Assembly (NCBI GenBank): GCA_028696075.1
Contig: JAQVHS010000008.1
Coordinates: 1 to 58,412, forward strand
Source of the DNA: Candidatus Gastranaerophilales bacterium
Lineage (GTDB): Bacteria; Cyanobacteriota; Vampirovibrionia; Gastranaerophilales; JAILCC01
Direction: 5' to 3'
Length of the DNA stretch: 58,412 nucleotides
Shown here: piece after piece, positions 26,608-45,653 of the stretch
Numbering within the stretch: position 1 is the first letter of the stretch
How the letters are laid out: every line of letters begins with the position of its first letter
Notes under the pieces: model-generated
Databases searched by the model: none
What the model saw: only the letters and a program-made list of their open reading frames with translations
What the model was told of the DNA's origin: nothing
Translations under genes and position numbers: made by a program

Positions 26608-27197
26608 TGAGAAGTCTTGTATTTGCTACTTCTAACGAGCATAAAATCTACGAAGTGCAATCAAAATTTGATTATGAAAAACAAAATGTTGAAATCATCC
26701 CTGTGACACAACCGTTTGACCCTGATGAAAACGGCAAAAACTTTCTCGAAAATGCCTATATAAAGGCTTTTGAAGCTGCCAAAATTATGGGAGCGCCTGC
26801 TTTTGCGGATGATTCAGGGCTTTGTGTGGAAGCTTTGGGCGGTTTGCCGGGTATTCAGAGCGCAAGATATGCGCCTACAAGAGATGAAAAAATTGCTAAA
26901 TTATTAAATGCGCTAAAGGATTTTACCGACGAAAAAGACCGTAAGGCGTGCTTTAACTGCGCAATTTCGCTTGTTACGCCTGCAGGTGAGGAGCTGTTTT
27001 CAACCGAAGGCAGTTGCAGCGGCTATATTATCAAAGAGCTTCATGGTACGCACGGATTTGGCTATGACCCTGTTTTTTATGTCAAGGAGTATGATAAAAC
27101 TTTTGCGGAACTTGACATCGATGTAAAAAATAGGATAAGTCATCGTGCGATTGCTTTAAATAATTTTATAAATTTTATAAAAAATAACAAAAATTAA
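26607..27197 (+). CDS. rdgB: XTP/dITP pyrophosphatase (Ham1/RdgB family)
   Basis: 196 residues. Removes non-canonical purine nucleotides such as dITP and XTP. Family motifs: LVFATSNEHKIYEV, then FADDSGLCVEALGGLPGIQSAR and GFGYDPVFY, with SHRAIAL near the end. Starts within the uppS stop codon, so the two are cotranscribed. The stop lies at the edge of an 825-base gene-poor gap. Confidence 0.95.
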   Translation: MRSLVFATSNEHKIYEVQSKFDYEKQNVEIIPVTQPFDPDENGKNFLENAYIKAFEAAKIMGAPAFADDSGLCVEALGGLPGIQSARYAPTRDEKIAKLLNALKDFTDEKDRKACFNCAISLVTPAGEELFSTEGSCSGYIIKELHGTHGFGYDPVFYVKEYDKTFAELDIDVKNRISHRAIALNNFINFIKNNKN

Positions 27198-27214
27198 CAA
27201 AAAAGCACTAAAAT

Positions 27215-27396
27215 CAATGGTTTCTGAGAGGTCTGAAATACATGCCTGGCATGCCTTTTGGGGATTGAAATCATGAAAACCCATGTTGCTGTAAACAAAC
27301 AGGCATAAGGGTACAGCCAAAAAACGCTCATGGTTTCATGTTCGGGCAATTGTTTAGAAATGTAATAATAGCAAGGGTTTTGCTTGCAAAATTTTT
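27215..27396 (+). ncRNA. Possible structured non-coding RNA
   Basis: A gene-free stretch with compatible helices: CATGAAAACCCATG (27272-27285) against CATGGTTTCATG (27329-27340); inside it GCTGTA (27288-27293) against TACAGC (27312-27317); the loop CAGGCAT (27300-27306) is the exact complement of ATGCCTG (27242-27248), a possible pseudoknot; TTTCT and AGAAA could close the ends. A GCAAG/CTTGC hairpin (27371-27387) followed by a T run could end it. About 180 nt long. No known family recognised; 6S RNA is the nearest in size but its motifs are not clear. The minus-strand open frame here looks like a shadow. Confidence 0.35.
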
Positions 27397-27524
27397 CTGT
27401 ACGGATATAATCTTTATATTGAAGAAAATAAATCAAAACTGCACGATTTTAATTCTACTTTTTAGTTGTTAAAAGCGTCCGCAAAAAACAATGTAAATAA
27501 TGGTAGTTATATAAATGATTTTTT

Positions 27525-27600
27525 CATAGAAAGCTGAAACCCTCTCAGGGTTCAGTTAAACGTGGAAATTTTCAGAGGAAATCGTGTAAGCTTTTCGCTA
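27525..27600 (+). promoter_or_regulatory. Structured leader upstream of the Cys-rich micro-gene
   Basis: CTGA/TCAG plus ACCCT/AGGGT (27534-27555) form a strong hairpin with a bulged A. ATTTTC/GGAAAT (27568-27582) forms a second one, flanked by two CGTG words, and AAAG/CTTT (27530-27533, 27591-27594) could close the pair. No riboswitch class recognised. The rest of 27397-27655 has nothing I can name. Confidence 0.3.
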
Positions 27601-27655
27601 AAAAAGGGTTGTTGATAGATTTGGTCTCAAAATGGGATTTGGAGGAATGTAACCG

Positions 27656-27877
27656 GTGATTAGATTGAGGGATTTTGGGAGAAATGCTTCGGTTCGTAGA
27701 TGGACTAGTATAGCTATGGATTGTTATTCAAGAGGGTGTGTATGCAGCGGCTGTTTTTATAATGACTTTTTTAAAGACAGTCCCCAGCGTTGCCAGATGA
27801 AATCAACTGTTTTAGAGCTTGTACGGGTGTTGGGAAAACCTACAAACGCTAAACATCCTGCTCAAATTTTGGATTGA
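27656..27877 (+). CDS. Cys-rich micro-protein
   Basis: 73 residues from a GTG with GGAGG ten bases before it; an internal ATG at 27716 would give 53 residues starting at MDCYSRGCVCSGC. The core CYSRGCVCSGCF followed by a Cys in RCQMKSTVLELVRVLGKP gives five cysteines spaced as if for metal or Fe-S binding, with an amphipathic helix after them. No family recognised with certainty. Lies alone between the putative RNA and the GGDEF gene, after a structured leader. 27878-28022 holds only AT-rich promoter-like sequence. Confidence 0.6.
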   Translation: MIRLRDFGRNASVRRWTSIAMDCYSRGCVCSGCFYNDFFKDSPQRCQMKSTVLELVRVLGKPTNAKHPAQILD

Positions 27878-28022
27878 TTTCAAATAAGCGTAAATATAAA
27901 CATTGCATGTGTATTGTACTTAATATTTTTGGTTATTTTACGTTCACTTTTTTATTGCTTTGTGTACTTTTTTGAAAAATCTGCTAAAATAGGAATGTTA
28001 AGTTATATAACATGGTGGAATT

Positions 28023-28901
28023 ATGAGTAATATAATCATTTATACTAATGGCTCTGCTTCAACTATAGAAGATTTATTAGCCCAAAATATTGATTACAGC
28101 GTCAGAACAAAAAATATATCGGAAATTAAAGAACATGAAACGTTAAACCCCGGTTTAATAGTGCTTGAATTTTCTGAAGAAGAAGTGAAAAATGTAGTTA
28201 TGACTAATAAATTTACCGCTCCGGTGTTGATAGTTTCGTCTAAATTGCCTGAAATAACTTCAATAAGGGCTGAATCTTATGATTATATTTCAACTCCTGT
28301 TGATAAATTTGAGATTAATGTCAGAATTCATAACCTTTTGAAGATTAAAGAATTAAAAGACAAAATTTCTATAGTTTCCACCACCGATGAACTTACAGGG
28401 TTATACAACAGAAAATATCTGCATGAAAGGCTTGAAGCCGAGCTTTCCCGTGCAAAACGCTATAAGTTATCGCTCTCATGCCTGCTTCTTGATATAGATT
28501 ATTTTAAAGTCATTAATGATATGTACGGGTACGACTGCGGCGATGTCCTGTTGAAAAAACTCTCTGAAATTATTGCCCAGCACGTCAGAAAAGAAGATGT
28601 TTTGACACGTTACGGCGATGAAGAATTTTTGGTTCTTTTGCCTAACACTGATGAGGAAAATGCTTATTTATTCGCGGAACGTTTAAGAAGAGATGTTGCT
28701 AAATTTGAATTTATTCCGGAAGGCGAAGAGGAAGCCCATCCGATTACTCTTTCAGGCGGGGTTTCCAGTTATCCATTCCTGGAGAATGTCGAAGAAAATG
28801 CGAACACTTTAATCAGATATTCCGAACATGCGCTTTATAATGCGAAGCACCGCGGAAAAAATAAAATCGTACAATTTTCACAAGTTAATATTGAAATGTA
28901 A
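28023..28901 (+). CDS. GGDEF-domain protein (GDEEF variant) with receiver-like N-terminus
   Basis: 292 residues. Residues 1-110 have the alternating strand-helix layout of a receiver domain, but the usual phospho-acceptor Asp is not seen (VLEFSEEE near 48-54). Residues 118-285 are a GGDEF domain: DELTGLYNRKYL, LDIDYFKVINDMYGYDCGD with the metal-site Asp, inhibitory-site RKED at 189-192, and an active-site loop GDEEF at 198-202 in place of GGDEF. Cyclic-di-GMP synthesis is possible but uncertain. ATG preceded by a GGTGGA site. Stands alone. Confidence 0.88.
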   Translation: MSNIIIYTNGSASTIEDLLAQNIDYSVRTKNISEIKEHETLNPGLIVLEFSEEEVKNVVMTNKFTAPVLIVSSKLPEITSIRAESYDYISTPVDKFEINVRIHNLLKIKELKDKISIVSTTDELTGLYNRKYLHERLEAELSRAKRYKLSLSCLLLDIDYFKVINDMYGYDCGDVLLKKLSEIIAQHVRKEDVLTRYGDEEFLVLLPNTDEENAYLFAERLRRDVAKFEFIPEGEEEAHPITLSGGVSSYPFLENVEENANTLIRYSEHALYNAKHRGKNKIVQFSQVNIEM

Positions 28902-28914
28902 GGAAATATAGATA

Positions 28915-29070
28915 TTAATTTTTTATAATTTTACTTAAAATGGTGTTGTTTAAAACAGTCAGTTTTTGTGCGAAAAAATTTATTGCGGGTTTATTTTCAA
29001 CATTATTTTGCATTGTATCTACAATATTTTCCATCTCTGTCAATAATTTTAATAATTCATCTCTTTGCAT
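28915..29070 (-). CDS. 51-residue helical protein divergent from an XRE regulator
   Basis: 51 residues, MQRDELLKLLTEMENIVDTM at the start, ending ILSKIIKN; predicted all-helical. AGGA stands eight bases before the ATG. It resembles the 58-residue protein at 43828: both carry an E(M/I)xxV..xM.xN(V/I)EN...I.....KL..L pattern. Both are transcribed away from an XRE-type regulator. No family recognised. Confidence 0.55.
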   Translation of the reverse strand: MQRDELLKLLTEMENIVDTMQNNVENKPAINFFAQKLTVLNNTILSKIIKN

Positions 29071-29110
29071 TCATGGTTTCCTGGAAGCCTAATTATTTCC
29101 GCAAGAAAAT

Positions 29111-29140
29111 ACAACTAAAAAATTTTAGTTGTAGTATAAT
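29111..29140 (+). promoter_or_regulatory. 22-bp palindrome and -10 box between the 51-aa gene and the XRE gene
   Basis: ACAACTAAAA and TTTTAGTTGT are exact inverse arms (29111-29120, 29123-29132) around two As, followed directly by TATAAT at 29135-29140. The palindrome covers the -35 zone, as expected for an operator of the XRE protein. Confidence 0.55.
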
Positions 29141-29249
29141 ATGAAATTATGGACTGCGACAAAATACTCTAGAACAATTTTAACCATAAATTGATAATTT
29201 GTCAAGCGATTTTATCCATATTTTGCTAATTTTTTGTTTAGGAAATGCT

Positions 29250-29846
29250 ATGACTGAATTTAAGGACAGATTGAAAATATTAAGAGGTGCTTTACATCTT
29301 AAACAAGATGATATGGCCGGAGAAATTGGAGTCAAACTCACTGCCATAAGTAAATATGAAACGAACGTGGTAAAGCCCGGTTTTGAAACATTATCAAAAA
29401 TCGGTTTACAATACAATGTTAATTTGAATTGGCTGATTAACGGTTATGGTGATATGTTAAATAACTATATCGCAGTTGAAAAAACAGGTACTGACGATAT
29501 AGGGATTTTTGTAGCTCAAAATAATAATAAAATCGTTTATGAGAATTTCGAAGGTATGAGCGATGAAAGCTACAATAAAATTAAAAAAGCCACAAAGAAA
29601 TTCAGCAATGAGGAAGAAACTCAAAAACATGCCATGGCTTTGAGTAAAAATATTAAAATAGATTATTATGAAGGAACCGGCAAAATCGGGTCTAAAATAT
29701 TTTATGCCGATGGTAGTGTAGACTCTTTCCAAGAAGATGAGTCCGTTGATGAAATGTGTAAACAAATTATTGCTAAATTGGCAAAAATTCAAAATGATAA
29801 AGAAAAATTAAGAATAATCAAACTTGCTGTAGATGCTTTGGAATAA
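29250..29846 (+). CDS. XRE-family (Cro/CI-type) transcriptional regulator
   Basis: 198 residues from the ATG at 29250, chosen over an upstream in-frame start because AGGA precedes it and the HTH begins there. The N-terminal helix-turn-helix is LKQDDMAGEIGVKLTAISKYE, then the GFETLSKIGLQYNVNLNWL segment that marks phage-repressor-like regulators. The C-terminal 120 residues are Lys/Glu-rich and not recognised; no peptidase S24 motif. Likely represses itself and the 51-residue gene across the palindrome. Ends 10 bases before the convergent GH57 gene. Confidence 0.82.
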   Translation: MTEFKDRLKILRGALHLKQDDMAGEIGVKLTAISKYETNVVKPGFETLSKIGLQYNVNLNWLINGYGDMLNNYIAVEKTGTDDIGIFVAQNNNKIVYENFEGMSDESYNKIKKATKKFSNEEETQKHAMALSKNIKIDYYEGTGKIGSKIFYADGSVDSFQEDESVDEMCKQIIAKLAKIQNDKEKLRIIKLAVDALE

Positions 29847-29855
29847 AAAATTAAA

Positions 29856-32126
29856 TTAAACCGGTCTTTCTATATAAATAGCGTTGTCTAAGGGTAATAC
29901 CTGATTAATAATGTTTGATTTACAAACAATAAATATCATATAAATACCTTCCTGCGGGTTTAATTTCAAATCGTCAAAAGGTATTTGCATTTCCAAAGTT
30001 TCATTATAGAAGTAGTTAATATTATGCATCAGATTTACTTTCCACATAGAATTTTCCAAAGCTTCCGTAAATATTACGGGCAAAATCCGGTTTTTATTCA
30101 CAGGCACTTGAATTTCATGAGTATAAACGTACTTCAAAATTTGAGGAATATTTTCATTTTTATTTCTCAGCCTTATACTGGAATAGTTCATCGCATCACG
30201 CTTAGCCATATAAATAAACAGTTCATTCGGATAAATATCATTGGTATTTTCTTCAAAATAAAATTTATTAAAATCAAACCTGACATAAATGTTGGTTTCA
30301 TCATTTCCGAAGAATATTTTATCTATCATTTTATTGGCAAAAGTAGGACCTTGCGGAATTTCTATACAGCCTGCCTGATTCCATTCGGGTGATGAGGTAT
30401 AAGTGCCTGTTATCATGGGTGAAATAAGTCTTTTTGGATGTTTGGAAGGTTTCCCGACAAAGTTATCCAGTGCAATATTCAGATATGGCGGTGCGGGCAA
30501 ATTCAGGTAATTATAGACGCTGATAAGATGGTTGCGAAACAGACTGTCAAAAATTTCATCACGCCCGCTGTTATTTGGTTCTCCGTACCACCAAAACCAG
30601 TCACTGCTTTGCGCTACCAAGAGTTCTTTATGTGCTTTTTGAATTGCTTCATTATCATAATTTTCATTTTTTACTGCTATCATAAAATCATGTTTAGTTT
30701 TATTTAGATAATCCCAGGCCAAATTCTTGATGGAATCACCTATCCACATGTCGAAAGCATTATTTATCCATGAACCCGGAACGATTTTTTTAATAGGCTT
30801 GGAAATTTTAAGATTATCTATGTAATCGCTTATGGTCGTAACATTTATCGTTTCATCTTTATCAAGCAATGTATAAAAAGCTCTTAAAAAATCAATACCG
30901 TCTTTAGAATAATTTTCCCAGCAATTTTCACCGTCGAGCGCTATTGTTAAAATATGGTTATCAAGCGGTGATGCTTCCAGCTTATCCTGAGAAGTTTTAA
31001 TTCTTTCATAAAGGTCGTTTGCGGCAACCAGGCTGTCAAAGTTGGAATATTCAAAGTTTATAAGGCTGGACAGGGCGGCATTTCTGAATAAAATTTTAAT
31101 ATTGTTGGGCTTGTTTTCAAATGTGTAGCATTGATTTAAGTCAAAAGGGTCTTCTAAAATCCCTCTGTAGTTGCGGACAAATTCTTTTTTTAGAGACTTG
31201 GCGAGCGTATGCTCATCTCCGATTGTCCACTTGATATTCAAATCTGACAATATTTTTAGCGAGGCAGGACTTATACATAATTCAGGCAGCCAAATCCCTT
31301 TAGGGGTACAGCCGAATGTACTTTGTATTTTTTCTATGCTGCTTTTAATTTGTGCTGTAGCATCGGATTTTAGGGCAGAAACGGTTTCAGGCAAAATTAT
31401 ATCTTTATTTATAGTTTTCGCTTTTTCAAAGTCTATCATTAACGGAATAATAGGATGATAATAAGGACTTGTAGATATTTCTATTCGCCCTTCATCTAAT
31501 AATCTTTTATAAGAAGGGATAATTTGCCGCATAATTTCTCTTTGCAGCTCAATAATTTTTTCTCTGTCTTCTTTTGTATATCCGTATCTTTTTTCAAATA
31601 AATTTCTGATTTCTTCATTTCTTTCAATATGAAGGGGGTCAAACCATGCAAGATTAAACCAGGCAAGAAGGTCTGAAATTTCTTCATCTGAAAAATCTTC
31701 CGTTTCACAATTTTCTACAAATCTTTTTTTATACAATTTTAAAAACGGTTTATTAGGCTCAATCTGATTTGTATAATTCGCATCAAAAAAGTGGTCAAAA
31801 ATATAATTTTTTTCTTCTATTGATAATTTTTCCACATCACAAATTGTATATTTTGATAAAATATCATGAGCTTCATGATAAACATAGTCTTCTATTTGGC
31901 TCAAAAGTAAAGGAACCAGGTTAAAATTAAGTTTAATATTCTCAAATTCATCCAACAGCAAAAGCATATCCAGATAATCTTTAATTGCATGCAGCCTTAC
32001 CCAGGGCATTACATATAACCCTGTTTTAGAATCTTTATATGACGGCTGGTGCATATGCCAAACTATTGCTACTGATATTTTTTTACCCATACGCATATTA
32101 TAAGCTTTTGCTCCGTTAGTGTCCAT
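29856..32126 (-). CDS. Glycoside hydrolase family 57 protein
   Basis: 756 residues. GH57 enzymes act on alpha-glucans (amylase, amylopullulanase or branching enzyme). Conserved regions: VWHMHQPSY near the N-terminus (HQP at 26-28), KGIWLPELCIS with the likely nucleophile Glu282, and IALDGENCWENY with the likely acid/base Asp398. The C-terminal 250 residues look like an added beta-rich domain. No signal peptide, so cytoplasmic, matching glgC nearby in glycogen turnover. The start could be 32126 or the internal ATGs at 32096 or 32090; none has a good ribosome binding site. Specificity is not determined. Confidence 0.9.
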   Translation of the reverse strand: MDTNGAKAYNMRMGKKISVAIVWHMHQPSYKDSKTGLYVMPWVRLHAIKDYLDMLLLLDEFENIKLNFNLVPLLLSQIEDYVYHEAHDILSKYTICDVEKLSIEEKNYIFDHFFDANYTNQIEPNKPFLKLYKKRFVENCETEDFSDEEISDLLAWFNLAWFDPLHIERNEEIRNLFEKRYGYTKEDREKIIELQREIMRQIIPSYKRLLDEGRIEISTSPYYHPIIPLMIDFEKAKTINKDIILPETVSALKSDATAQIKSSIEKIQSTFGCTPKGIWLPELCISPASLKILSDLNIKWTIGDEHTLAKSLKKEFVRNYRGILEDPFDLNQCYTFENKPNNIKILFRNAALSSLINFEYSNFDSLVAANDLYERIKTSQDKLEASPLDNHILTIALDGENCWENYSKDGIDFLRAFYTLLDKDETINVTTISDYIDNLKISKPIKKIVPGSWINNAFDMWIGDSIKNLAWDYLNKTKHDFMIAVKNENYDNEAIQKAHKELLVAQSSDWFWWYGEPNNSGRDEIFDSLFRNHLISVYNYLNLPAPPYLNIALDNFVGKPSKHPKRLISPMITGTYTSSPEWNQAGCIEIPQGPTFANKMIDKIFFGNDETNIYVRFDFNKFYFEENTNDIYPNELFIYMAKRDAMNYSSIRLRNKNENIPQILKYVYTHEIQVPVNKNRILPVIFTEALENSMWKVNLMHNINYFYNETLEMQIPFDDLKLNPQEGIYMIFIVCKSNIINQVLPLDNAIYIERPV

Positions 32127-32249
32127 AAGATTTTATGCGTATTTTAACTATGGCGGGAAAAATAGGGTCTTGTACGCAAAAAATCAACTCAAAAGACAAA
32201 AATCAAAAAAAATTGACCTTTTCCGTATCCTCCATGGTAAAATCTCACT

Positions 32250-33953
32250 ATGAAAGATATTAAAGTATTATTTCCCATACTTACGCCAAAAGATATCAAA
32301 ATATGTGAAAAATCGGAGTCTAACCTGATTTATGTATCTTTTTCACATTTTTTGACGAACGGTTTTGAAAAGTTATTTGAATTTATTGAAGCTGCTAAAA
32401 AATATAAGGCGGAATTGTTCATTTATTTTGAAGAAAATCTTTTTGACAAAAACAACCCCTACATAAAAGATTTTTTAAAGTTTATAGATAACCAGCCCAT
32501 CTCAGGTATTATAATCAGTACTCTTGCTATTTTAGAATTTATAAAACTAAAAGATATTCACTATAAAATTATTATAGACTCAAGCGCAGACGTTCATAAT
32601 TTAAGCTCTATTGAATTTATGAAACTTTTCCAAAAAATTGACTATATAAACGTGTCTGAAGAAATTTATATGAAAAACATTGCCAAAATAAAAAAATCCA
32701 CACGTATAAAATTATGTATAGACTCAAATAATTTGCCCTGGATAGCGGAAGACATATTGAAGCTGAATGCTATCGAACTGATTATGTTGAAGGGTGATTT
32801 TTCCAATGCCAGAGAAATAGCGGGCGCGCTTAACCTTGTAGAAAAAATTATTCAAAACCCGAAAGTCTATAAGAATAAAAAACTTCCGTTTAAAACATTA
32901 GCCACGGGTACTTACGAAACCAACCATTTTACGGGTGAATTTTTATCGACGAAAGGCAAAGATTTTAAATTTTCGGGTAATATAGAGCCTTTTGACTGGC
33001 ATTTTCATAGAATTCAATTGAGCAAAAGTTTTGATAAAACAAAAAATTATCCGAAACTTTGTTTAAGAATGAACAGTTTGGAACAGCTGAGAAAATTACA
33101 AAAATATATTGATAAATTAGGCTTTAACCCTGTTCAATCAATGGAATACGGGGAAATTTTAAATACCGTGGATTTATCAAAAAACAGTTTCAATCAAATT
33201 TTAACCAAAGTAAAGGCCTTTTGTGCCAAAAATAACATCAAGCTCAAACTCAGCACTCCTAAAACTCTTATAGAACGTGATATTGACAGAGTTTACGAGT
33301 ATGTAAAGGCGCTTTTTGACAACAATCCGCCTTACTCTTTAATCATAAATAACCTTGGATTTTGGTGGATGGTTATTAACGACCCTGATTATGATAAGCT
33401 TCCCATTGAACTGGGTCCTAATTTAAACTTGAACAACGGTGAGTCTATTTTATCTCTTGCAAATCAGCGTAAAATTGAAGGCATTGAATTAAGCAATTTT
33501 GTTGACGTCAAAGATATTGAAGAATGTATCAGAACTATAAAAGATGATGTTCCCAATAAAAAATTAACGATAGCAGGTTCTATTAAAATTCCCTGTTCCG
33601 GGCTTTGTCCCTTGAACCATGACAGTGCTGTTTTATCACGTCTGACCTGTCCTGCCCCGTGTCAAAAAAGACGATTTGCTATAACGGATAAAGACCGTAG
33701 TAAAACATATACGCTTATTGTAGACGGTTTTTGCAGAATGCATTTATATCGTGATAAAATTCTCGATTTATTTCAATATGTCCGTCCTTTGCTAAAAATC
33801 GGCATTAATGAATTTATTATCGACTTTAGTGCGTTAACATCAAAACTTGTACCTGTTTTAATAACAAGGTACTTAAATTCGCTTGCGGAAGAAAATTATC
33901 AAACCGACGAGCATTTCCTCGATAAACTTTATTATCTTAACTATTATTATTAG
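32250..33953 (+). CDS. Peptidase U32-like protein
   Basis: 567 residues. The C-terminal third carries clustered cysteines, IPCSGLCPLNHDSAVL, then LTCPAPCQKRRFA and DGFCRMHLYR, as in U32 family proteins, whose bacterial relatives (UbiU/UbiV, RlhA) bind Fe-S clusters and act in hydroxylation. The N-terminal half resembles a TIM-barrel with strands like IIDSSADVHNLSS, in the U32 style but diverged. Substrate unknown. Alone on the plus strand; its stop is directly next to the stop of the minus-strand gene at 33954. Confidence 0.6.
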   Translation: MKDIKVLFPILTPKDIKICEKSESNLIYVSFSHFLTNGFEKLFEFIEAAKKYKAELFIYFEENLFDKNNPYIKDFLKFIDNQPISGIIISTLAILEFIKLKDIHYKIIIDSSADVHNLSSIEFMKLFQKIDYINVSEEIYMKNIAKIKKSTRIKLCIDSNNLPWIAEDILKLNAIELIMLKGDFSNAREIAGALNLVEKIIQNPKVYKNKKLPFKTLATGTYETNHFTGEFLSTKGKDFKFSGNIEPFDWHFHRIQLSKSFDKTKNYPKLCLRMNSLEQLRKLQKYIDKLGFNPVQSMEYGEILNTVDLSKNSFNQILTKVKAFCAKNNIKLKLSTPKTLIERDIDRVYEYVKALFDNNPPYSLIINNLGFWWMVINDPDYDKLPIELGPNLNLNNGESILSLANQRKIEGIELSNFVDVKDIEECIRTIKDDVPNKKLTIAGSIKIPCSGLCPLNHDSAVLSRLTCPAPCQKRRFAITDKDRSKTYTLIVDGFCRMHLYRDKILDLFQYVRPLLKIGINEFIIDFSALTSKLVPVLITRYLNSLAEENYQTDEHFLDKLYYLNYYY

Positions 33954-34211
33954 TTATTGGAATTTTTTAATAAAACCTTTTAATTTATCAAGCATACTTT
34001 CTTCCTGATATGCTTCAAAACTGCCGTAAGTGTCCATGCTTTCAATAAAATCAACACTGCCTGAATTTGAAGAAAGAATGGATTCTTCTTCCTCCTGTTT
34101 TTTCTTTTTCATTTTAAAATAGCCTGTGCTGCCGTTTCCGCCGCCTTTACCTAAAAAGGTGCTTTCTACTTTTGGTTTAAATGCACTTGCTGAGTTTAAA
34201 TCGAATGACAT
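33954..34211 (-). CDS. Small hypothetical protein
   Basis: 85 residues, Gly/Ser/Lys/Glu-rich: an N-terminal SASAFKPKVESTFLGKGGG region, a Lys-Glu run and a C-terminal helix MLDKLKGFIKKF. Looks mostly disordered. No family recognised. AAGG eight bases before the ATG. Stop-to-stop neighbour of the U32 gene. Confidence 0.5.
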   Translation of the reverse strand: MSFDLNSASAFKPKVESTFLGKGGGNGSTGYFKMKKKKQEEEESILSSNSGSVDFIESMDTYGSFEAYQEESMLDKLKGFIKKFQ

Positions 34212-34320
34212 GGTTCTAACCTTATATTATCCTTATATTAATAAAAACAAAGCATGGGTCTTATACTAACATAGTAGTAATAAAATTTACAAAACTTAAC
34301 ATAATATTTTATTTTTAATA

Positions 34321-35184
34321 TTAACGTTTTTTCTGGAACAAATAAATGTATTCGTGTTTAAAAATATAAAATCCGCCGGCAAGCGCTCTATATCGCCATA
34401 AATTCGCTGTTTTACCTTTTGCTTTTTCGTTGCCTTCTATATTTTTGACAATCAGGGCTTTTAGCGTAAAACCGACTTCCTGCATTTTTTCCATACACAA
34501 AGAACCCAACGGAATAAGTTCGCCGTCGGCATATTTATCGCCTATAATCAAGGCTGCAAAACGTCCTTTTTCCAAACAGTCATAACCGCTTTGCGCTGCT
34601 TTCTTAAACTGTTCAAGAAAGTCCTCTGTTTTCTCAAAATTTGACAAATCTTCTTTCAAATCACTGAATTTGATAATATCAGCATAAGGAGGGTGCAACA
34701 TTAAAAATTGTGCGTTTTCTTCGTCCAAACCTTTAAGCGTTGCTTTAATATGTTTTTTGACTGATGTGGAAGTGCTGTCGCCGGTTATAATCTTGATTGA
34801 TTTATCAAGAGCTTCTCTTGTAAATTTATTACTCACAAGGTCGCACATATCTTTTTTAAGCTCAACACCTATACATCTTCTGCCCATATTAAACGCTTCT
34901 ATTGCGCTCGTGCCTGACCCCAGAAATAAATCCAATACAACATCCTGCGACTTTGTATAGCGTTCAAAAAGCTGTGTGGCAATTTGGGGAATATAATTCC
35001 CGTGGTAATCGTAGCTATGCCCGTTGCCTTTTTCTCTGGATTGAAAATTCCACAAAGAACCTGTTTCTATATGTTGATAGTTTCGCCAGTCTTTCAGCTT
35101 AATATCGTTATAGGCAGTTGTTTCGCGAACTACCCTGAGTTTCTTTTGCGGCTGCTCAACTTGTTTTACCGATTTTTTGGGCAA
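34321..35184 (-). CDS. Orphan DNA methyltransferase-like protein
   Basis: 287 residues. SAM-binding motif I VLDLFLGSGTSAIEAF (83-98) is followed by motif IV as LMLHPPY (HPPY at 164-167), in place of DPPY/SPPY, so the order is I then IV. The motif-I loop and following GRRCIGVEL fit N6-adenine or N4-cytosine methylases. No restriction enzyme or specificity subunit is near, so it is solitary, perhaps regulatory or phage-derived. A tRNA or rRNA target cannot be excluded. AAAAGGAG stands before the ATG. Transcribed away from lepA. Confidence 0.78.
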   Translation of the reverse strand: MPKKSVKQVEQPQKKLRVVRETTAYNDIKLKDWRNYQHIETGSLWNFQSREKGNGHSYDYHGNYIPQIATQLFERYTKSQDVVLDLFLGSGTSAIEAFNMGRRCIGVELKKDMCDLVSNKFTREALDKSIKIITGDSTSTSVKKHIKATLKGLDEENAQFLMLHPPYADIIKFSDLKEDLSNFEKTEDFLEQFKKAAQSGYDCLEKGRFAALIIGDKYADGELIPLGSLCMEKMQEVGFTLKALIVKNIEGNEKAKGKTANLWRYRALAGGFYIFKHEYIYLFQKKR

Positions 35185-35351
35185 CTTTCAATCTCCTTTT
35201 CAAATATAGCTCTACTATACTAATAACCGTGGTTTTTGAAATCATTAGTTTGATGTAATTTGACCATATAAATATTTGGTCTAAAAAAATGATTATTCTT
35301 TTAAAATACTTGTTATATAATATTCTTGAATAATCAAAAACTAAAAACTGA

Positions 35352-37145
35352 ATGATAAAACATATAAGAAACTTTTGTATAATAGCGCATATTGACCATG
35401 GAAAATCTACTCTCGCAGACAGACTGCTTGAGAAGACGAATTCTGTTGCATCAAGAGAGATGAAAGACCAGCTGCTCGACACCATGGATATAGAACGTGA
35501 GCGCGGTATTACCATAAAATTACAGGCAGCCCGTATGAATTATCTTGCACAAGACGGCGCCGCTTATGTTTTAAACCTTATTGACACACCGGGACACGTT
35601 GATTTTTCTTACGAAGTATCCCGGAGTTTGGCAGCCTGCGAAGGTGCTTTGCTTGTAGTGGATGCCTCACAGGGGGTGGAAGCCCAAACGCTTGCGAATG
35701 TTTATATGGCAATTGACCAAAATCTTGAAATCATCCCTGTTATAAACAAAATTGACCTACCAAGCGCAGATACGGAGAGGGTAAAACAAGAGATTGAAGA
35801 TATTATAGGTATTGATGCATCAGATGCGATTTTAGTCAGTGCAAAATCGGGAATAGGCATAGAAGAAGTCTTGGAAGCAGTTGTTAACCGCATTCCTGCT
35901 CCTGTGGATACCAGCAAAAAGCCTTTAAGAGCTTTGGTTTTTGACAGCGCTTATGACTCTTATTTAGGTACAATGGCATTTTTTAAAGTTGTTGACGGTG
36001 AAGTGCAATCTAATGAAAAAATCAAATTTATGTCCTCAGGCAAAACTTATGATATAGTCGAACTCGGATACATGCGCCCTATGAGAACCCCGTCTAAAGT
36101 CATTAAAACAGGTGAAGTAGGATATATGGCTGCATCCATTAAAGAGGTAACGCAGCTTGTCGGTGATACCGTTACTCTTGCCGAAGCCCCTGCAAAAGAA
36201 CCCCTGCCCGGTTATAAAAAAGCCGTTCCCATGGTTTTTTCGGGGATGTTTCCTGTTGACAATGACCAGTATCACGATTTAAAAGAAGCGCTCGAGCGAT
36301 TGAAGCTCAATGACAGCAGTATCACATTTGAACCCGAGAGTTCCAATGCTTTGGGTTTTGGTTTCAGGTGTGGTTTTTTGGGCATGCTTCATATGGAAAT
36401 CGCACAAGAAAGACTTGAGCGTGAATACGGGCTTTCACTTGTAATTACCGCCCCAAGCGTTGTATATCGGGTAACCAAAACCAACGGCGAAATAGTTTTG
36501 ATAGATAACCCCGCAAATTTACCGGATGCACAGTTCAGAGAAAAAATTGAAGAACCTTATGTAAAGGTAAATATTATAGTTCCTAACGATTATGTAGGGG
36601 CTTTGATGGAATTATGCCAGCAAAAACGGGGGATGTTTAAAAACATGCACTACCTTGATAAGGTAAGGGTAAATTTGGAATATGAAATTCCTTTGGCGGA
36701 AGTAATTACAGACTTTTACGACCAGTTAAAATCCCGCTCAAAAGGTTATGCCAGTATGGATTATGAGTTAACCGATTATAAAGCATCAAAGCTTGTGAAA
36801 CTTGATATTTTGCTTGCAAACGAAATTGTAGATGCGCTAAGCTGTATAATTCATCAGGACAGTGCTTTTTATATAGGTCAAAAACTTGCCACTAAGCTAA
36901 AGGATATAATACCCCGTCAAATGTTTGAAGTAGCAATACAGGCAGCTATAGGCGGCAGAATTATTGCAAGAACAAACGTAAAAGCAATGCGCAAAAACGT
37001 GCTTGATAAATGTTACGGCGGTGATATTTCAAGAAAAAGAAAACTGCTTGAAAAACAAAAAGCAGGTAAAAAAAGAATGAAATCGGTAGGAAGGGTGGAA
37101 ATCCCGCAAGAAGCCTTTATGGCTGTATTAAGTGTCGAAGAGTAA
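35352..37145 (+). CDS. lepA: Elongation factor 4 (LepA)
   Basis: 597 residues, the usual length. Ribosome-associated GTPase that back-translocates or aids assembly of stalled ribosomes. [35 protein letters not shown] and NKIDLPSA give the GTP-binding motifs. The C-terminal LepA-specific domain with [14 protein letters not shown]-type basic end is intact ([20 protein letters not shown]). Starts a plus run; the divergent methyltransferase gene is 167 bases away. Confidence 0.96.
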
Positions 37146-37160
37146 CTAAAAAAAGGATAT

Positions 37161-38396
37161 ATGATGAACGATGTTTTAGTAATGGTTTTAGCCGGCGGCG
37201 AAGGTAAGAGGTTACACCCTTTAACCCGCGACAGAGCCAAGCCTGCAGTACCTTTCGGCGGAAGATACCGTATCGTGGACTTTGTTTTAAACAACCTGAT
37301 TAACTCGGGATTTTACAAAATCAAAGTTTTAACCCAGTACAAATCAGACTCTTTGAACAAACATATTACAAGAGGATGGCCTCTATCGCCTATCATTGAC
37401 CATTTTATAGACCTTGTACCCGCACAAATGAGGACAGGCGGCGCCTGGTATAACGGAACAGCTGATGCCGTGTATCAGAATATCAATACTATAGAAGATG
37501 AAAACCCTAATTTTGTGTGTATTTTTGGCGGCGACCATATTTATAAAATGGACGTTCAGCAAATGCTTAAATTTCACAAAAAAAAGATGGCAGGGCTTAC
37601 AATAAGCGCTATCCCCATCCCTGTTGAAGAAGCAGGAGAGTTTGGCATTATGGAAGTGGATGAAAACTGGAGGCTTACGGGATTTCAGGAAAAACCGACC
37701 ACAAGACCAAAAACTATCCCCGGCAATGATGATATGGTACTTGCTTCTATGGGCAATTATATTTTTGACACCGATGTGCTTTTAAGAACACTGTATGAAG
37801 ATGCGCAGGACAAAAAATCATCTCACGATTTTGGCAAAAATATTATTCCGGCGCTGTTGGAAGAAATTCCTGTTTATGTCTATGACTACAGCAAAAACAC
37901 CCACCCCGGGATGCTTGACACGGAAAAAGGCTACTGGCGTGATGTCGGGAGTGTAGATGCTTACTGGCAAACTAATATGGACTTGCTTGCTATAAATCCC
38001 GAGTTTAATTTATACAACCGTGAATGGCCGATAAGGACTTACAATTACAATTTTCCGCCCGCAAAGTTTGCAAGAGAAGAACAAGACCGCACAGGGCTTG
38101 CTATCAACTCTTTGGTAAGTGAAGGCTGTGTAATCAGCGGAGGGCAGATAAGCAGATGTGTTTTATCACCTAACGTTCGTGTAAACAGTTTTTCAAAAGT
38201 TACGGAATCTATTTTGATGGAAGATGTAGAAATAGGGAGGTATGCAGAAATAAGAAAAGCAATTATTGATAAGTTTGTAAAAATACCCGATTATGTTAAA
38301 ATTGGGGTAAATAAAGAACATGATTTAGAAAGAGGATTTTACGTTTCTCCGCAAGGCGTAACCGTAGTCCCGAAAGGAGCAAAATTAAATGTTTGA
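37161..38396 (+). CDS. glgC: Glucose-1-phosphate adenylyltransferase
   Basis: 411 residues. Makes ADP-glucose, the committed step of glycogen synthesis. LAGGEGKRLHPLTRDRAKPA is the nucleotide-binding loop, FGGDHIYKMD and EKPTTRPKTIPG are catalytic-region segments, and a C-terminal left-handed beta-helix (SEGCVISGGQISRCVLSPNV) follows. An AAAGGA site precedes ATGATG at 37161. Overlaps the thioredoxin gene by eight bases. With GH57 and GH13-like genes it points to an alpha-glucan store. Confidence 0.96.
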   Translation: MMNDVLVMVLAGGEGKRLHPLTRDRAKPAVPFGGRYRIVDFVLNNLINSGFYKIKVLTQYKSDSLNKHITRGWPLSPIIDHFIDLVPAQMRTGGAWYNGTADAVYQNINTIEDENPNFVCIFGGDHIYKMDVQQMLKFHKKKMAGLTISAIPIPVEEAGEFGIMEVDENWRLTGFQEKPTTRPKTIPGNDDMVLASMGNYIFDTDVLLRTLYEDAQDKKSSHDFGKNIIPALLEEIPVYVYDYSKNTHPGMLDTEKGYWRDVGSVDAYWQTNMDLLAINPEFNLYNREWPIRTYNYNFPPAKFAREEQDRTGLAINSLVSEGCVISGGQISRCVLSPNVRVNSFSKVTESILMEDVEIGRYAEIRKAIIDKFVKIPDYVKIGVNKEHDLERGFYVSPQGVTVVPKGAKLNV

Positions 38397-38982
38397 CGAA
38401 AAAATTATCGGAAAAATTGTTTGGGCAAATTTAGCTCTGACAGTAGCAGTATTATTACTCAGCGTAGTAATGTTTTCAAAGTTGTTCATTCCCGAAGGCA
38501 CAATAGCTGCAGCAGCTCCTGACAGAGCGGCAGCACCTTCTCATCAGGCAGCACAACCTGCAAACGATGAAAAAATTTCTAAAAAATATGACACAAGAAT
38601 GACTCTGGAAAAAGCGCTTCAAAAAGGAAAACCTGTTGCAGTATTATTTTATGCTGACTGGTGTGGATTTTGTAAGAGATTTGCACCTACTTTTGATGAA
38701 TTGGCAAAAGACAAAGATTTAAAGAAAAAATACACCTTTGCTTATGTTAATTCAGATTCCCCCGACAGCAGAGCGCTTATGCAGCAATACAATGTAAGAG
38801 GATTTCCCACACTTTACTTAATTAATCCAAAAACTATCGACAAAGCTCACGTATCTAACAGTTTAATGTTTGGTGCGGATGCTTTCGGCACAATGAAAGA
38901 ACAATTTGAAAAATTTGTTGAAGAGGGCTCAAGCGCAGTAACCCAACCTCCTGCACCGCAAGCTCCAAAAGAGGAAGACTAA
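38389..38982 (+). CDS. Membrane-anchored thioredoxin-fold protein
   Basis: 197 residues. One N-terminal transmembrane helix (about 9-33), an Ala/Pro-rich linker, then a thioredoxin domain with FYADWCGFCKRFAP (Cys92 and Cys95) and the cis-Pro GFPTLY segment. The domain would face outside the cytoplasm, keeping envelope thiols reduced or oxidised. The Pro-rich tail is disordered. It overlaps glgC and precedes fabI by 13 bases, so it is in that operon. Confidence 0.88.
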   Translation: MFDEKIIGKIVWANLALTVAVLLLSVVMFSKLFIPEGTIAAAAPDRAAAPSHQAAQPANDEKISKKYDTRMTLEKALQKGKPVAVLFYADWCGFCKRFAPTFDELAKDKDLKKKYTFAYVNSDSPDSRALMQQYNVRGFPTLYLINPKTIDKAHVSNSLMFGADAFGTMKEQFEKFVEEGSSAVTQPPAPQAPKEED

Positions 38983-38995
38983 AAAGGATAAAACA

Positions 38996-39805
38996 ATGTC
39001 AATTATGCATGGAAAAAGAGGAATAGTATTTGGCGTAAGCAATAAAAGAGGCATTGCCCACGCTATCGCCGAAAAATTATTCCAAAACGGAGCGGAAATT
39101 GCTTTTACCTACGCTAATGAAGCTATGGAATCAAGAGTACGCCCTATAGCAGAAGAAATGGATGCTAAAATCATCATGGAATGTGATGTAACTAAAGAAG
39201 AAGATGTTCAAAAAGTTTTTGATGCATATGAAAAACTTTACGGTAACTTGGACTTCGTACTTCATGCTGTTGCATTCGCAAACCGTGAAGATTTACAAGG
39301 CAATTTCTCTGACACTTCAAAAGCAGGATGGGACACGGCTCTTGGCGTTAGCTCCTATTCGCTTATCTCAATGGCAAGATGTGCTAAAAAACTGATGAAT
39401 GACGGCGGTTCTATTTGTGCATTGTCATACATCGGTTCTGAAAAAGCCGTTGCCAACTACAACATTATGGGTGTAGCAAAGGCAGCGCTGGAAGCTTCCG
39501 TAAGATATCTGGCGCAGGAATTCGGAGAGCAGGATATCAGAGTGAACGCTCTTTCTGCAGGACCTATCAAAACGCTTGCTGCAAAAGGCATAGGCGGCTT
39601 TGACCATATGTTGAAATTAAATGAAATTAAAGCACCTTTGGGCAGAAATACTTCGCTTGATGATGTTGCAAATTCGGCGCTTTATCTGTTATCTGATTTA
39701 TCTTCAGGTGTAACAGGTGAAACCCTGCACGTTGATTGCGGTGTTCATGCCGTCGGTGCAAGTAAAAATGAATTATTGATTTTAAACTTGGCGAAAGCTA
39801 AATAG
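38996..39805 (+). CDS. fabI: Enoyl-ACP reductase
   Basis: 269 residues. NADH-dependent last step of each fatty acid elongation cycle. N-terminal nucleotide site GVSNKRGIAHAIA, the FabI-type SYIGSEKAVANYNIMGVAKA with Tyr and Lys spaced Yx6K, and the RVNALSAGPI segment. Catalytic residues intact, so it is a plain FabI. Ends a short operon with glgC; a terminator follows. Confidence 0.93.
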   Translation: MSIMHGKRGIVFGVSNKRGIAHAIAEKLFQNGAEIAFTYANEAMESRVRPIAEEMDAKIIMECDVTKEEDVQKVFDAYEKLYGNLDFVLHAVAFANREDLQGNFSDTSKAGWDTALGVSSYSLISMARCAKKLMNDGGSICALSYIGSEKAVANYNIMGVAKAALEASVRYLAQEFGEQDIRVNALSAGPIKTLAAKGIGGFDHMLKLNEIKAPLGRNTSLDDVANSALYLLSDLSSGVTGETLHVDCGVHAVGASKNELLILNLAKAK

Positions 39806-39826
39806 TTTTTGATTAATTAAAATTGT

Positions 39827-39855
39827 AAAAACCGACCCCTAAAAGGCCGGTTTTT
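39827..39855 (+). terminator. Intrinsic terminator after fabI
   Basis: AAAAACCG and CGGTTTTT pair, with CC/GG continuing past one mismatch, around a loop of CCTAAAA; the 3' arm ends in a T run. Confidence 0.8.
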
Positions 39856-39922
39856 ATTTGTCGGATTTTTTCAAATATATTTTATTAACATAACCCCTCG
39901 GGTATGCTAAAATGCTTATATT

Positions 39923-41203
39923 ATGCAAGTAAAAGTCGAAAAAACCACACAATTAAACGGTGCTGTGACAATCCCCGCCGACAAATCCATAAGCCACAGA
40001 GCGGTTATGCTCGGAGCCTTATGCGATAGCAGGCTTAAGATAACCAATTTTTCCAAAGGCGAAGACTGCCGAAATACCCTTGAAATTTTCAAACAGCTTG
40101 GCAGCGAGGTAGAATTTATAAACGAATCCGATTTTTATCTTATACCCTCTAAACTTAAAGCGCCTAAAACCCCTCTTTATGTAGGTAATTCAGGCACTAC
40201 AATCCGTTTAATCAGCGGGATTTTAGCCTCGCAGGATTTCACCTGTACTATAAGCGGTGATGAAAGCCTTTCAAAGCGTCCGATGGGCAGGATTATAAAA
40301 CCTCTAACCCTTATGGGCGCTAAGATTTCTTCCCTGAATAATGATGATAAAGCGCCTTTAATCATTGAAGGCTCAACCCTTCAAGGGATTGATTACGATT
40401 CGCCGATTGCAAGCGCCCAGATAAAATCATGCCTGCTTTTTGCGGGACTGCATGCGCAGGGAACAACCAGAATCACGGAACCTTACAAATCCCGCAGCCA
40501 TTCAGAGCTGATGTTAAAGTATCTGGGGGCAAATATCAAAGAGAACTCAAACACGGTTGAAATTCAAAAATCACAGCTTCAGGCGGGCAATATAACCATT
40601 GCCGGAGATATTTCATCGGCTGCGTTTTTCCTTGTTGCAGGCGCAATTGTAGAGGGGGCTGATATTACGGTTAAAAATGTCGGGCTAAATCCTACACGCA
40701 CGGGAATTATCGATGTTTTAAAACAAATGGGAGCAAGTATTGAAATTTTCAATCAGCGGACGCTCAGCGGAGAAGACACGGGCGATGTAAGGGTTTGTTA
40801 TTCCGGTTTAAAGGCTGTAACCATAGAAGGTGAAATAATTCCGCGTTTGATTGATGAATTGCCTGTTATTGCAATTTTAGCCTCGCAAGCTGAAGGCACA
40901 ACAATTGTCAAAGACGCACAGGACTTAAGAAATAAAGAATCCGACCGTATAAAAACCGTGTGTCATGAATTTAGAAAGCTCGGTGTAGACATAGAAGAAA
41001 CGCAAGACGGCTTTAGAATAAACGGTAAAACCAAACTTAAGGGAGATACGATTGTTGAATGCTATCACGACCACAGGCTTGCAATGAGCGCTTATGTAGC
41101 GGGACTGATTTGTGAGAAACCTGTTTTGATAAATAATTTTGAATGGGTAAATACTTCATTTCCCGAGTTTTTAGAGTTAATATATAAAATAAAGGAGAGT
41201 TAA
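39923..41203 (+). CDS. aroA: 3-phosphoshikimate 1-carboxyvinyltransferase (EPSP synthase)
   Basis: 426 residues, typical length. Shikimate pathway enzyme joining phosphoenolpyruvate to shikimate-3-phosphate. PADKSISHRAVMLGAL, VGNSGTTIRLISG, SKRPMGRI, KSRSHSELML and the C-terminal RNKESDRIK with DHRLAMS are all present. Four bases before plsC, with an AAAGGAG site for that gene. Confidence 0.96.
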   Translation: MQVKVEKTTQLNGAVTIPADKSISHRAVMLGALCDSRLKITNFSKGEDCRNTLEIFKQLGSEVEFINESDFYLIPSKLKAPKTPLYVGNSGTTIRLISGILASQDFTCTISGDESLSKRPMGRIIKPLTLMGAKISSLNNDDKAPLIIEGSTLQGIDYDSPIASAQIKSCLLFAGLHAQGTTRITEPYKSRSHSELMLKYLGANIKENSNTVEIQKSQLQAGNITIAGDISSAAFFLVAGAIVEGADITVKNVGLNPTRTGIIDVLKQMGASIEIFNQRTLSGEDTGDVRVCYSGLKAVTIEGEIIPRLIDELPVIAILASQAEGTTIVKDAQDLRNKESDRIKTVCHEFRKLGVDIEETQDGFRINGKTKLKGDTIVECYHDHRLAMSAYVAGLICEKPVLINNFEWVNTSFPEFLELIYKIKES

Positions 41204-41206
41204 TAT

Positions 41207-41932
41207 ATGGCAAAAAGAAATTATGCAAAGCGCGAAACTCACGAATATACAAGGTTTACCTCGTTTTGCCAGTTTTTAATAATTTATTTGTTTATATTCC
41301 CGTATTTTTATGTCTTTCACAGATTAAGAATATCGGGCAGAGAACATATTCCGAAAGGCGAATCGTTTATCGTGGCAGCTACCCACTCATCTTATTATGA
41401 CCCTCCGCTTGTAAGTGTTGCAGTGGTTAAGCCTATTGCTTATATGGCTAAAAAAGAACTCTTTGAAGTCCCTATTTTAAGGGAAATAGTGATATTTCTA
41501 GGTGCTTTCGCCGTAAACAGAGAAAGTCTTGAAATTGCTACAATAAGAACCGCTAAAGCTGTTATTCAGACGAAACACTGGATTATGGCAATGTTTCCCC
41601 AGGGCAACAGGGATATACCCGGTAAAATCACTAAGATTAACGGCGGTTTTGCGTATTTGTCCAAAACCACAAAAGCCAAAATCCTTCCCGTTTCCATTGT
41701 AGGGTCTGAAGAATACAACTTTATCCCGTTTTTGAAAAAAATTACGATAAGAATAGGTAAACCGCTGCCTGCATGTACCGATATGAACCAAACAATGTGG
41801 GATTGGTGCCAGGCTATTGAAAACCTCGGCAGTTATGAATTTACACAGGAAGCAAAAGATAAACTCGCTGTAATACAGCAGGAGCAAGAGAAAAAGGGGA
41901 AAAAGGTTGAAAGCACTAATACAGAGGGTTAA
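41207..41932 (+). CDS. plsC: 1-acylglycerol-3-phosphate O-acyltransferase-like protein
   Basis: 241 residues. Transfers an acyl chain in phosphatidic acid synthesis. A membrane segment (about 20-38) precedes the HX4D motif THSSYYDPP. The third block is FPQGNRDIPG, where the usual Glu is Gln, which is unusual but seen in some relatives. The C-terminal Lys/Glu-rich end overlaps dtd by 26 bases. Acyl and acceptor preference cannot be told from sequence. Confidence 0.88.
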   Translation: MAKRNYAKRETHEYTRFTSFCQFLIIYLFIFPYFYVFHRLRISGREHIPKGESFIVAATHSSYYDPPLVSVAVVKPIAYMAKKELFEVPILREIVIFLGAFAVNRESLEIATIRTAKAVIQTKHWIMAMFPQGNRDIPGKITKINGGFAYLSKTTKAKILPVSIVGSEEYNFIPFLKKITIRIGKPLPACTDMNQTMWDWCQAIENLGSYEFTQEAKDKLAVIQQEQEKKGKKVESTNTEG

Positions 41933-42353
41933 AAATTCTTCCGTGGAAATAGACGGCAAAATTTCTTCTTCAATCGGGGCAGGTATGCTGATTTTACTGG
42001 GGGTGGAAAAGAACGACACTTTTAAGACTGCAGCTGCGCTTGCCGATAAGGTTTTGAAGTTTAGAATTTTTGAAGATGAAAATGACAAAATGAACTTATC
42101 CGTCTGTGATATAAACGGTGAAATCCTTGTGGTATCACAATTTACACTGGCAGCCGATTGCAAAAAAGGTACACGTCCGAGCTTTGATAACGCTAAAATG
42201 CCCAAAGAAGCAAACGAGATTTATGAGTTTTTTGTGAACGAATTGAAAAAATCAAATTTAAAAATCCAAACAGGTGTTTTTGGTGCTATGATGGATGTAA
42301 AATTAACCAATGACGGACCGGTAACATTTATGTTAGAAAAGCAGGGGCAATGA
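41907..42353 (+). CDS. dtd: D-aminoacyl-tRNA deacylase
   Basis: 148 residues from a TTG at 41907, chosen because the homologous N-terminus KALIQRVKNSSVEIDG follows directly and an AAGGGG-type site precedes it. Removes D-amino acids from mischarged tRNAs. VVSQFTLAADCKKGTRPSF holds the SQFT motif and NDGPVT the cis-Pro loop. The start lies inside plsC by 26 bases, so the two are translationally linked. Confidence 0.93.
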   Translation: MKALIQRVKNSSVEIDGKISSSIGAGMLILLGVEKNDTFKTAAALADKVLKFRIFEDENDKMNLSVCDINGEILVVSQFTLAADCKKGTRPSFDNAKMPKEANEIYEFFVNELKKSNLKIQTGVFGAMMDVKLTNDGPVTFMLEKQGQ

Positions 42354-43186
42354 TGAAAAAGATAAAATTCACGAAAATGCAAGGTTTAGGCAACGATTTT
42401 ATACTTGTTGATTATGAAAAAAACACTGATTTTCAAGCTTTGGCGGAGAAAATGTGCGACAGACATTTTGGTATAGGGGCAGACGGTTTGATAGTTGTAA
42501 ATCCCGAAGATATGAACGGCAGTGCTGATGCCAGCTGGCATATTTACAACTCTGACGGCAGCGAACCGCAGATGTGCGGCAACGGCATAAGGTGTTTGAC
42601 GAAATATGTTTATGAAAAAAATTTAGTTAATAAAAAGAAATTCACAGTCAATACCCTTGCAGGGATTGTTATTCCTGAGATTTTAGAGGATGGTAAAGTA
42701 AAAGTTGATATGGGCAAGCCGATTTTAGGGCCTGTGGATATTCCCTGCAAAGCTTCAAGCGCTTTGAAGTTCCAAGTAAATGTATTAGACCGTTGTTTTG
42801 AAGCAAATGCCGTAAGCATGGGCAATCCGCACTGCGTTATTTTTGAGGACGAAGAGGTTATGCCTTTGGCTGAAAAATACGGTCCTCATATAGAAATACA
42901 TCCGTTTTTCCCTGAAAAAACAAACGTGGAATTTGTGCAAAAAATCTCTGACAGCCATTTAAAATTAGCAGTCTGGGAACGTGGCTGCGGTATAACGCTG
43001 GCATGCGGAACGGGCAGTTGTGCAACAGTTGTTGCGGCTATTTTGAACAAACTTACAGGCAAAAAAGTTCAGGTGGATTTACCCGGCGGAGCGCTTTTTA
43101 TCGAATGGAGCGGTAATACGGAAGATTCTGTCTTTATGACCGGTGATGCCGAGTTTGTATTTGAAGGTGAATATTTCGCTGATTAA
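42350..43186 (+). CDS. dapF: Diaminopimelate epimerase
   Basis: 278 residues. Makes meso-diaminopimelate for lysine and peptidoglycan. MCGNGIRCLTKYV and ITLACGTGSCATV carry the two catalytic cysteines. Overlaps dtd by four bases. It ends the plus run from aroA; repeat debris follows. Confidence 0.96.
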   Translation: MMKKIKFTKMQGLGNDFILVDYEKNTDFQALAEKMCDRHFGIGADGLIVVNPEDMNGSADASWHIYNSDGSEPQMCGNGIRCLTKYVYEKNLVNKKKFTVNTLAGIVIPEILEDGKVKVDMGKPILGPVDIPCKASSALKFQVNVLDRCFEANAVSMGNPHCVIFEDEEVMPLAEKYGPHIEIHPFFPEKTNVEFVQKISDSHLKLAVWERGCGITLACGTGSCATVVAAILNKLTGKKVQVDLPGGALFIEWSGNTEDSVFMTGDAEFVFEGEYFAD

Positions 43187-43458
43187 AGTAATACGCAGAA
43201 GGATGGCTTTTTCGTCATATTGAATCCTGAAACAAGTTCAGGATAAACTCCGCGAAATAGCTGTTTATTTTGATATAACAGATTCTTCACCTCTTAAACT
43301 CTTCTCAGCCTCCCGGCTCTCTACCTGCCGGATTGCCGTGTTCTCACTGCCTTAGTCTTCGCAAAGACAGTTGGGTCATCTTTGCCGATGCCGGGGGCGC
43401 TTTTATTGTTATCCGACTGCCTCCCGGCTACGCCAATCAGTATTCCCAAGGCTTTGCT
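43187..43458. repeat. Repeat debris between dapF and an XRE gene
   Basis: 272 bases without a gene. They hold a CTGAAACAAGTTCAG inverted word near 43228, a CTTCACCTCTTAAACTC and TCTCAGCCTCCCGGCTC stretch matching 57560-58412, and a GGATTGCC word (about 43330) as in the element there. These are old copies of dispersed repeats. Confidence 0.5.
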
Positions 43459-43671: not shown

Positions 43672-43738
43672 AAATACCGCCTTGTTTAATATTCTACTAA
43701 GGAATAGAACACTAAACGAAATAATTTATTATATTAAT

Positions 43739-43783
43739 TGACAACTCAATAATATTGTTTATAATTAAATTATATTATTGAGC
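43739..43783 (+). promoter_or_regulatory. Promoter with inverted-repeat operator for the 58-aa gene
   Basis: TTGACA (43739-43744) and TATAAT (43761-43766) with a 16-base spacer. CTCAATAATAT (43746-43756) and its exact inverse ATATTATTGAG (43773-43783) sit over the spacer and the start site. Confidence 0.7.
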
Positions 43784-43827
43784 GTTATTGTTATTCAGTA
43801 ATAATTCAACTCTGAAAGGAGCTGGCA

Positions 43828-44004: not shown

Positions 44005-44012
44005 TTTATGTT

Positions 44013-45647: not shown

Positions 45648-45653
45648 TTTGTC

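Follow-up and report, generated by a model that had tools for sequence, protein, structure and literature searches.

Divergent pairs of XRE regulator and small helical protein genes in Gastranaerophilales: candidate repressor-cargo cassettes

The window analysed here is a stretch of 58,412 nucleotides from Candidatus Gastranaerophilales bacterium (GenBank assembly GCA_028696075.1, contig JAQVHS010000008.1). It carries two loci, referred to as pair 1 and pair 2, at which a gene for a small helical protein lies divergent from a gene for an XRE-type regulator. Both small proteins belong to one family, which we name family A. The features of the two loci are:

28915-29070, minus strand: small helical protein gene of pair 1 (51 aa, family A), Shine-Dalgarno (SD) AGGA
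29110-29133, no strand: palindrome TACAACTAAAA-AA-TTTTAGTTGTA, 11/11 perfect arms, putative XRE operator
29135-29140, plus strand: putative -10 box TATAAT of the pair-1 XRE gene, a consensus match only, about 109 nt before the ATG
29177-29205, minus strand: putative strong promoter of the pair-1 small gene, TTGACA (29200-29205), N17, TAAAAT (29177-29182)
29250-29846, plus strand: XRE-type regulator gene of pair 1 (198 aa), HTH_19/HTH_3 at the N-terminus
43459-43671, minus strand: XRE-type regulator gene of pair 2 (70 aa), weak HTH_26 match (E 3.5e-4, just under the cut-off)
43738-43765, plus strand: putative consensus promoter of the pair-2 small gene, TTGACA-N16-TATAAT
43746-43781, no strand: imperfect inverted repeat TCAATAATAT...ATATTATTGA, covering the promoter spacer and -10 box
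43828-44004, plus strand: small helical protein gene of pair 2 (58 aa, family A), SD AAGGAG

Both genes of pair 1 are found where the initial annotation had placed them, and so is the perfect palindrome that it had described between them, whose 11+11 bp arms cover the -35 zone of the promoter predicted for the XRE gene. The 51-aa gene starts AGGAAACCATGAATG, with AGGA as the SD core. In a profile search the 198-aa protein matches HTH_19 (E 3e-11) and HTH_3 (E 1e-9), which makes it a member of the XRE family; the HTH lies at the N-terminus, ahead of a C-terminal part without an assigned function. Compared with 200 shuffles of its own intergenic region the palindrome has p=0.01, and it occurs a single time in the window at up to 3 mismatches, with 0.02 occurrences expected. 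Homologs of the 198-aa XRE are present in two genomes of the same family (G002, E 1e-23; G003, E 2e-21), both without a small-gene neighbour, and its matches in the species collection are to the HTH domain alone, in Paenibacillus and one spirochaete, and are uninformative. Flanking direct repeats worth noting, as a signature of a mobile cassette, were not found at pair 1, and there is no clean empty site for comparison because its GH57 neighbourhood differs in relatives.

At pair 2, the 43828 gene is likewise divergent from an HTH gene, as previously proposed, but the inverted repeat reported there is imperfect (14-bp arms with 2 mismatches) and not significant on its own (p=0.14 in shuffles). 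A 21-bp tandem duplication within the 58-aa gene (43943-43983) has given its product seven extra residues (LTSIINV/LTSTINS). AlphaFold2, run on single sequences, predicts a helical hairpin for the 51-aa protein (H2-23/H27-50, mean pLDDT 89.6) and one long helix for the 58-aa protein (mean pLDDT 88.6), so that the shape of the latter is uncertain. On the 3' side of the pair-2 XRE gene lies an intergenic dispersed repeat element (43186-43460, GC 47% vs 37%), which recurs in part at 57727, 58209 and 58340 as well as in a further locus, L113. The 490-aa protein encoded next to pair 2 (44013-45485) has no Pfam match at E values up to 1.

The initial annotation had also noticed a spaced pattern common to the two small proteins, and this holds up as homology. 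Their global alignment score is 58, as against 22 +/- 6 in composition shuffles, of which 0/1000 reach it (z ~5.7, ~33% identity). Set against other helical XRE partners, the two proteins gave z values of 4.2 at most in 28 comparisons, so the likeness goes beyond shared helicity. Plain BLASTP of one against the other aligns a short out-of-register piece (E 0.1). BLAST with the 51-aa protein does, however, recover relatives in three other genomes of its family (E 1e-5 to 0.002), and a profile built on these four sequences, without the 43828 protein, picks up G003:C113 (E 1e-7) and G002:C11 (E 2e-5) as additional paralogs and detects the 43828 protein at E 0.05 over most of its length. Family A thus comprises seven genes, two in the window and five in three genomes of the same family; their alignment has an invariant N23 and a two-helix pattern.

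Family A has no match in Pfam or NCBIfam, no PHROGs family was found for the small proteins, and no member occurs outside its taxonomic family among 386 genomes of the phylum, where the profile otherwise yields short coil matches inside 430-aa ORFs and nothing else. Foldseek retrieves generic helical hairpins only. Kinship with small helical regulators of the Spo0E or Sda type was considered and rejected, with no Pfam match and nothing below E 3 in Foldseek against the PDB. The small protein evolves fast: between the orthologous pairs G002:C11 and G003:C113 the XRE proteins are 78% identical and the small proteins 33%, and syntenic family-A genes show 29-45% identity compared with 47-78% for their neighbours.

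An XRE gene or XRE operon is the divergent neighbour of five of the seven family-A genes, in three of the four family genomes, an outcome with a chance probability of ~6e-8 even at a generous 2% per gene. Apart from the 198-aa and 70-aa XRE partners of the two window pairs, the arrangement is found in relatives at G002:C11 and G003:C113, where the small gene faces orthologous XREs of 73-75 aa, and at G003:C2, where it faces an AbrB-like gene followed by an XRE gene. The remaining two (G001:C3 and G002:C3) lie between an ABC permease gene and a surface-type gene, with no XRE. The promoter conserved between these two and G003:C2, TTGACxAATTAxCCA..ATATGATAAT, by eye resembles that of pair 1 (TTGACAAATTATC..TATGGTTAAAAT), although the automatic alignment did not register the resemblance. 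The pair-1 palindrome was found neither at the lone family-A genes nor at the XRE homologs; regulation of the lone genes in trans through this palindrome was accordingly rejected.

The partners are exchanged between pairs. No likeness is seen between the XREs of pair 1 and pair 2, and the pair-2 XRE is 55% identical to one from another family (locus L180) that is divergent from a small protein of an unrelated-looking family, family C (see below). One XRE type is therefore paired with A here and with C elsewhere, and regulators and cargos have been recombined. The recurring two-gene module suspected in the initial annotation consequently stands as a recurring arrangement, seen at 5/7 family-A genes and ~10/27 XRE genes of this genome, but not as a fixed pairing, given two family-A genes without an XRE, unrelated XRE types, and one XRE type shared between A and C.

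The genome itself (1.84 Mb) is rich in such regulators, with 28 HTH_3 matches, compared with 2-7 in relatives. A divergent small helical ORF (45-80 aa) lies within 200 bp of ~10 of 27 XRE genes, as against 2 of 45 other genes in a control that covers this one window (Fisher p 6e-4). The ORF survey is partly heuristic, with start codons set partly by hand and small ORFs called by length, and most XRE loci were viewed with flanks of ~1.2-1.5 kb. Besides family A, the XRE-partner ORFs include family B (A4/A6), family C (A5/A7) and singletons. Several of the small-protein families defined here are missing from the libraries searched. Families B and C are distantly related in profile comparison (E 2e-4), and no profile similarity was detected between family A and either of them. 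Family C mostly adjoins XREs; family B is present in 114 of 192 genomes of the order, mostly in a conserved 74-aa form without a nearby XRE. This form (MSKSKKYKIKQKDFRKLEKLAERIYNT...NAYFINYPDNKNF, L154-L178) is highly conserved across many genera throughout the order, mostly has no XRE within ~1.5 kb, and has no Pfam or NCBIfam match above the cut-off.

Elsewhere in the order the same position holds a different kind of gene. In family f2 a prepilin-like gene (FTLAEVLITLGIIGVVAA) is the commonest divergent neighbour of the XRE gene, and our survey contains 24 distinct XRE/prepilin pairs. Four f2 genomes (G018, G024, G028 and G030; L194-L263, e.g. L228, L235-L238 and L246-L250) very often have small XREs divergent from prepilin-like genes that code for 210-250 aa and carry a near-consensus promoter. 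This amounts to an amplified repertoire of regulators and prepilins, with HTH_3 matches in f2 genomes of roughly 2 Mb numbering up to 57 and 62. The open literature searched yielded no account of XRE/prepilin or XRE/small-protein pairs from this group.

Promoter anatomy was compared across 21 pairs hand-picked from the survey, and the two directions are strongly asymmetric. Predicted sigma-70 promoters of the small genes score 11-12 of 12 in 13 of the 21 pairs, compared with 15 of 301 control upstream regions (5%; p 1e-10), while promoters in the XRE direction are near shuffle level. XRE/prepilin pairs show the same asymmetry, 14 of 24 scoring 11 or more. A -10 box lies 5-11 nt before the XRE start in 14 of 21 pairs, against 31 of 229 controls, and an SD of at least 4 nt is absent at 18 of 21 XREs. 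Because the -10 box is so close to the start and an SD is lacking, most XRE genes in these pairs are probably leaderless; both window XREs are exceptions, having an SD and a long leader. The -35 box of the small gene begins 13-22 nt from the XRE start codon in ~10 pairs, in which the two promoters therefore overlap. Palindromes are enriched across the 21 pairs (Fisher combined p 3e-4), although the operator palindromes are weak in many of them.

The explanation that we prefer, with a probability of about 55%, is that expression of an exchangeable, fast-evolving small-protein cargo from its strong promoter is gated by a local XRE repressor. Each pair would be a self-contained repressor-cargo cassette with the small gene as cargo. 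Having a near-consensus promoter and usually an SD, the small gene is expected to be strongly expressed unless it is held down. The XRE gene, with its poor promoter and, in most cassettes, a -10 box just before the start and no SD, is expected to yield its product at a low level. By binding to an operator between the two genes, the XRE protein would repress both the cargo and itself, and it would release the operator on a signal. At pair 1 the palindrome overlies the XRE promoter and, seen from the small gene, falls downstream of its predicted start, and so may serve autoregulation instead of repression of the cargo. As for the cargo, the family-A protein would be cytosolic and fold as a helical hairpin, probably dimeric, and it would act through binding to a partner protein. 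Of the two guesses made in the initial annotation, a regulator-effector system fits these observations best, and a toxin-antitoxin system finds no support. The repressor-cargo model gives a simple prediction for reporter assays.

Known regulatory systems resemble these pairs in part. In systems of the SinR/SinI type, an XRE regulator gene lies beside a gene for a small helical antirepressor, and in phage CI/Cro switches a weak, often leaderless repressor transcript stands back to back with a strong promoter. The present pairs share with the former an XRE gene adjoining a gene for a small helical protein, and with the latter a predicted weak and often leaderless transcript of the putative repressor, facing away from a predicted strong promoter, in part with overlap of the two promoters. 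Closest among described systems are the phage TF-smORF modules, in which a regulator, an XRE in some, is divergent from a gene for a protein of ~50-60 aa without homologs; the transcription factor activates the smORF, whose product inactivates cI, and the modules follow one logic but carry different small proteins (Silpe et al. 2023, PMC10432266). Here too a regulator is divergent from a small ORF of ~50-60 codons, and the small proteins lack sequence similarity between modules with a common logic.

These likenesses argue for the most serious competing explanation, which we nonetheless consider unlikely: that the small protein is an antirepressor, either of its own divergent XRE, as in SinI/SinR, or of another repressor, as in the TF-smORF modules, where a divergent regulator and a ~50-aa helical protein have the same layout and the small protein inactivates a repressor (PMC10432266), the whole forming a bistable switch. 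Several observations speak against it. A single small-protein family occurs beside unrelated XREs, and a single XRE type beside unrelated small-protein families; such swapping of partners argues against a small protein that binds its own XRE in the manner of SinI. Unlike in SinR/SinI, the genes here are divergent, and the small protein shows no joint constraint with its XRE but changes much faster. Two family-A genes have no XRE neighbour, and prepilins occupy the same slot in family f2. The exchange of partners, the persistence of family-A genes lacking an XRE, the prepilins in the cargo slot and the 33% versus 78% identity together favour a cargo over a cognate antirepressor or a toxin-antitoxin pair.

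The comparison with phage systems is limited in other ways. Unlike CI/Cro, the divergent product is a predicted helical hairpin and not a DNA-binding protein, and no phage genes surround it. TF-smORF modules are phage-borne (PMC10432266), whereas the pairs described here are chromosomal and multicopy with ordinary neighbours, not in a prophage or phage-plasmid, and no cI target is in view. The pair-1 region has no match in phage records and the small proteins have none in IMG/VR; the pair-2 XRE has weak HTH-type matches among phage proteins, mainly of Clostridioides phages. With matches absent in the phage records and viral contigs searched, a phage origin of the pairs was rejected, and this absence also weighs against an antirepressor.

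XRE proteins can also act as activators. A distinctly improbable explanation is that the XRE activates the small gene, as do the regulators beside smORFs in the phage study (PMC10432266), or that a mobile element or prophage switch has left the pair behind as a decaying remnant. Since the promoters of the small genes already approach the consensus, they would not need activation, and repression is the more likely mode. As to decay, there are pairs that seem damaged, with a stop in the family-B copy at C1:178013 and a mere fragment of family C at C2:19801, but ordinary chromosomal genes are the neighbours, and both window pairs encode intact predicted proteins.

The PADLOC models HTH_VI and SP_VI, which we take to represent accessory proteins of type VI retrons, also combine an HTH protein with a small protein and give weak matches (E 3e-7 and 9e-4, respectively). 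SP_VI, however, matches one of the seven small proteins, and the HTH match is common to generic XRE models. No reverse transcriptase was recognised among the ORFs beside either pair, as judged without an RT profile, and Rfam gives no match in 27000-46000. Least probable of all is a toxin-antitoxin system with the small protein as toxin and the XRE as antitoxin and autoregulator, which the two-gene layout with an autoregulating XRE, rapid small-protein evolution and the single weak SP_VI match would suit, but not the divergent genes with separate promoters in place of the single operon of type II systems, the small gene's own strong promoter, its persistence without an XRE, or the absence of a recognisable toxin family in Pfam, NCBIfam and PHROGs.

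Repressor-cargo cassettes may extend to the whole order, a proposal that we put forward tentatively and rate at somewhat less than an even chance. The order would then hold a repertoire of tens of one-regulator/one-cargo cassettes on a common promoter plan, in which a weak leaderless XRE repressor gene is set against a cargo promoter close to consensus, with the slot filled differently by family (prepilins in one, small helical hairpins in others) and many proteins switched individually. If true, this would explain why small genomes of the order carry up to ~60 XRE genes, each guarding one neighbour, and the guarded gene would be predictable from its position.

Two further loci of the survey deserve mention. 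At L119 (G000:C20) the proteins are, by eye, unlike those of the rest of the genome, and assembly contamination is probable. At L190, in an f4 genome, three small XRE genes stand in tandem beside a family-C small gene (positions 383-1057).
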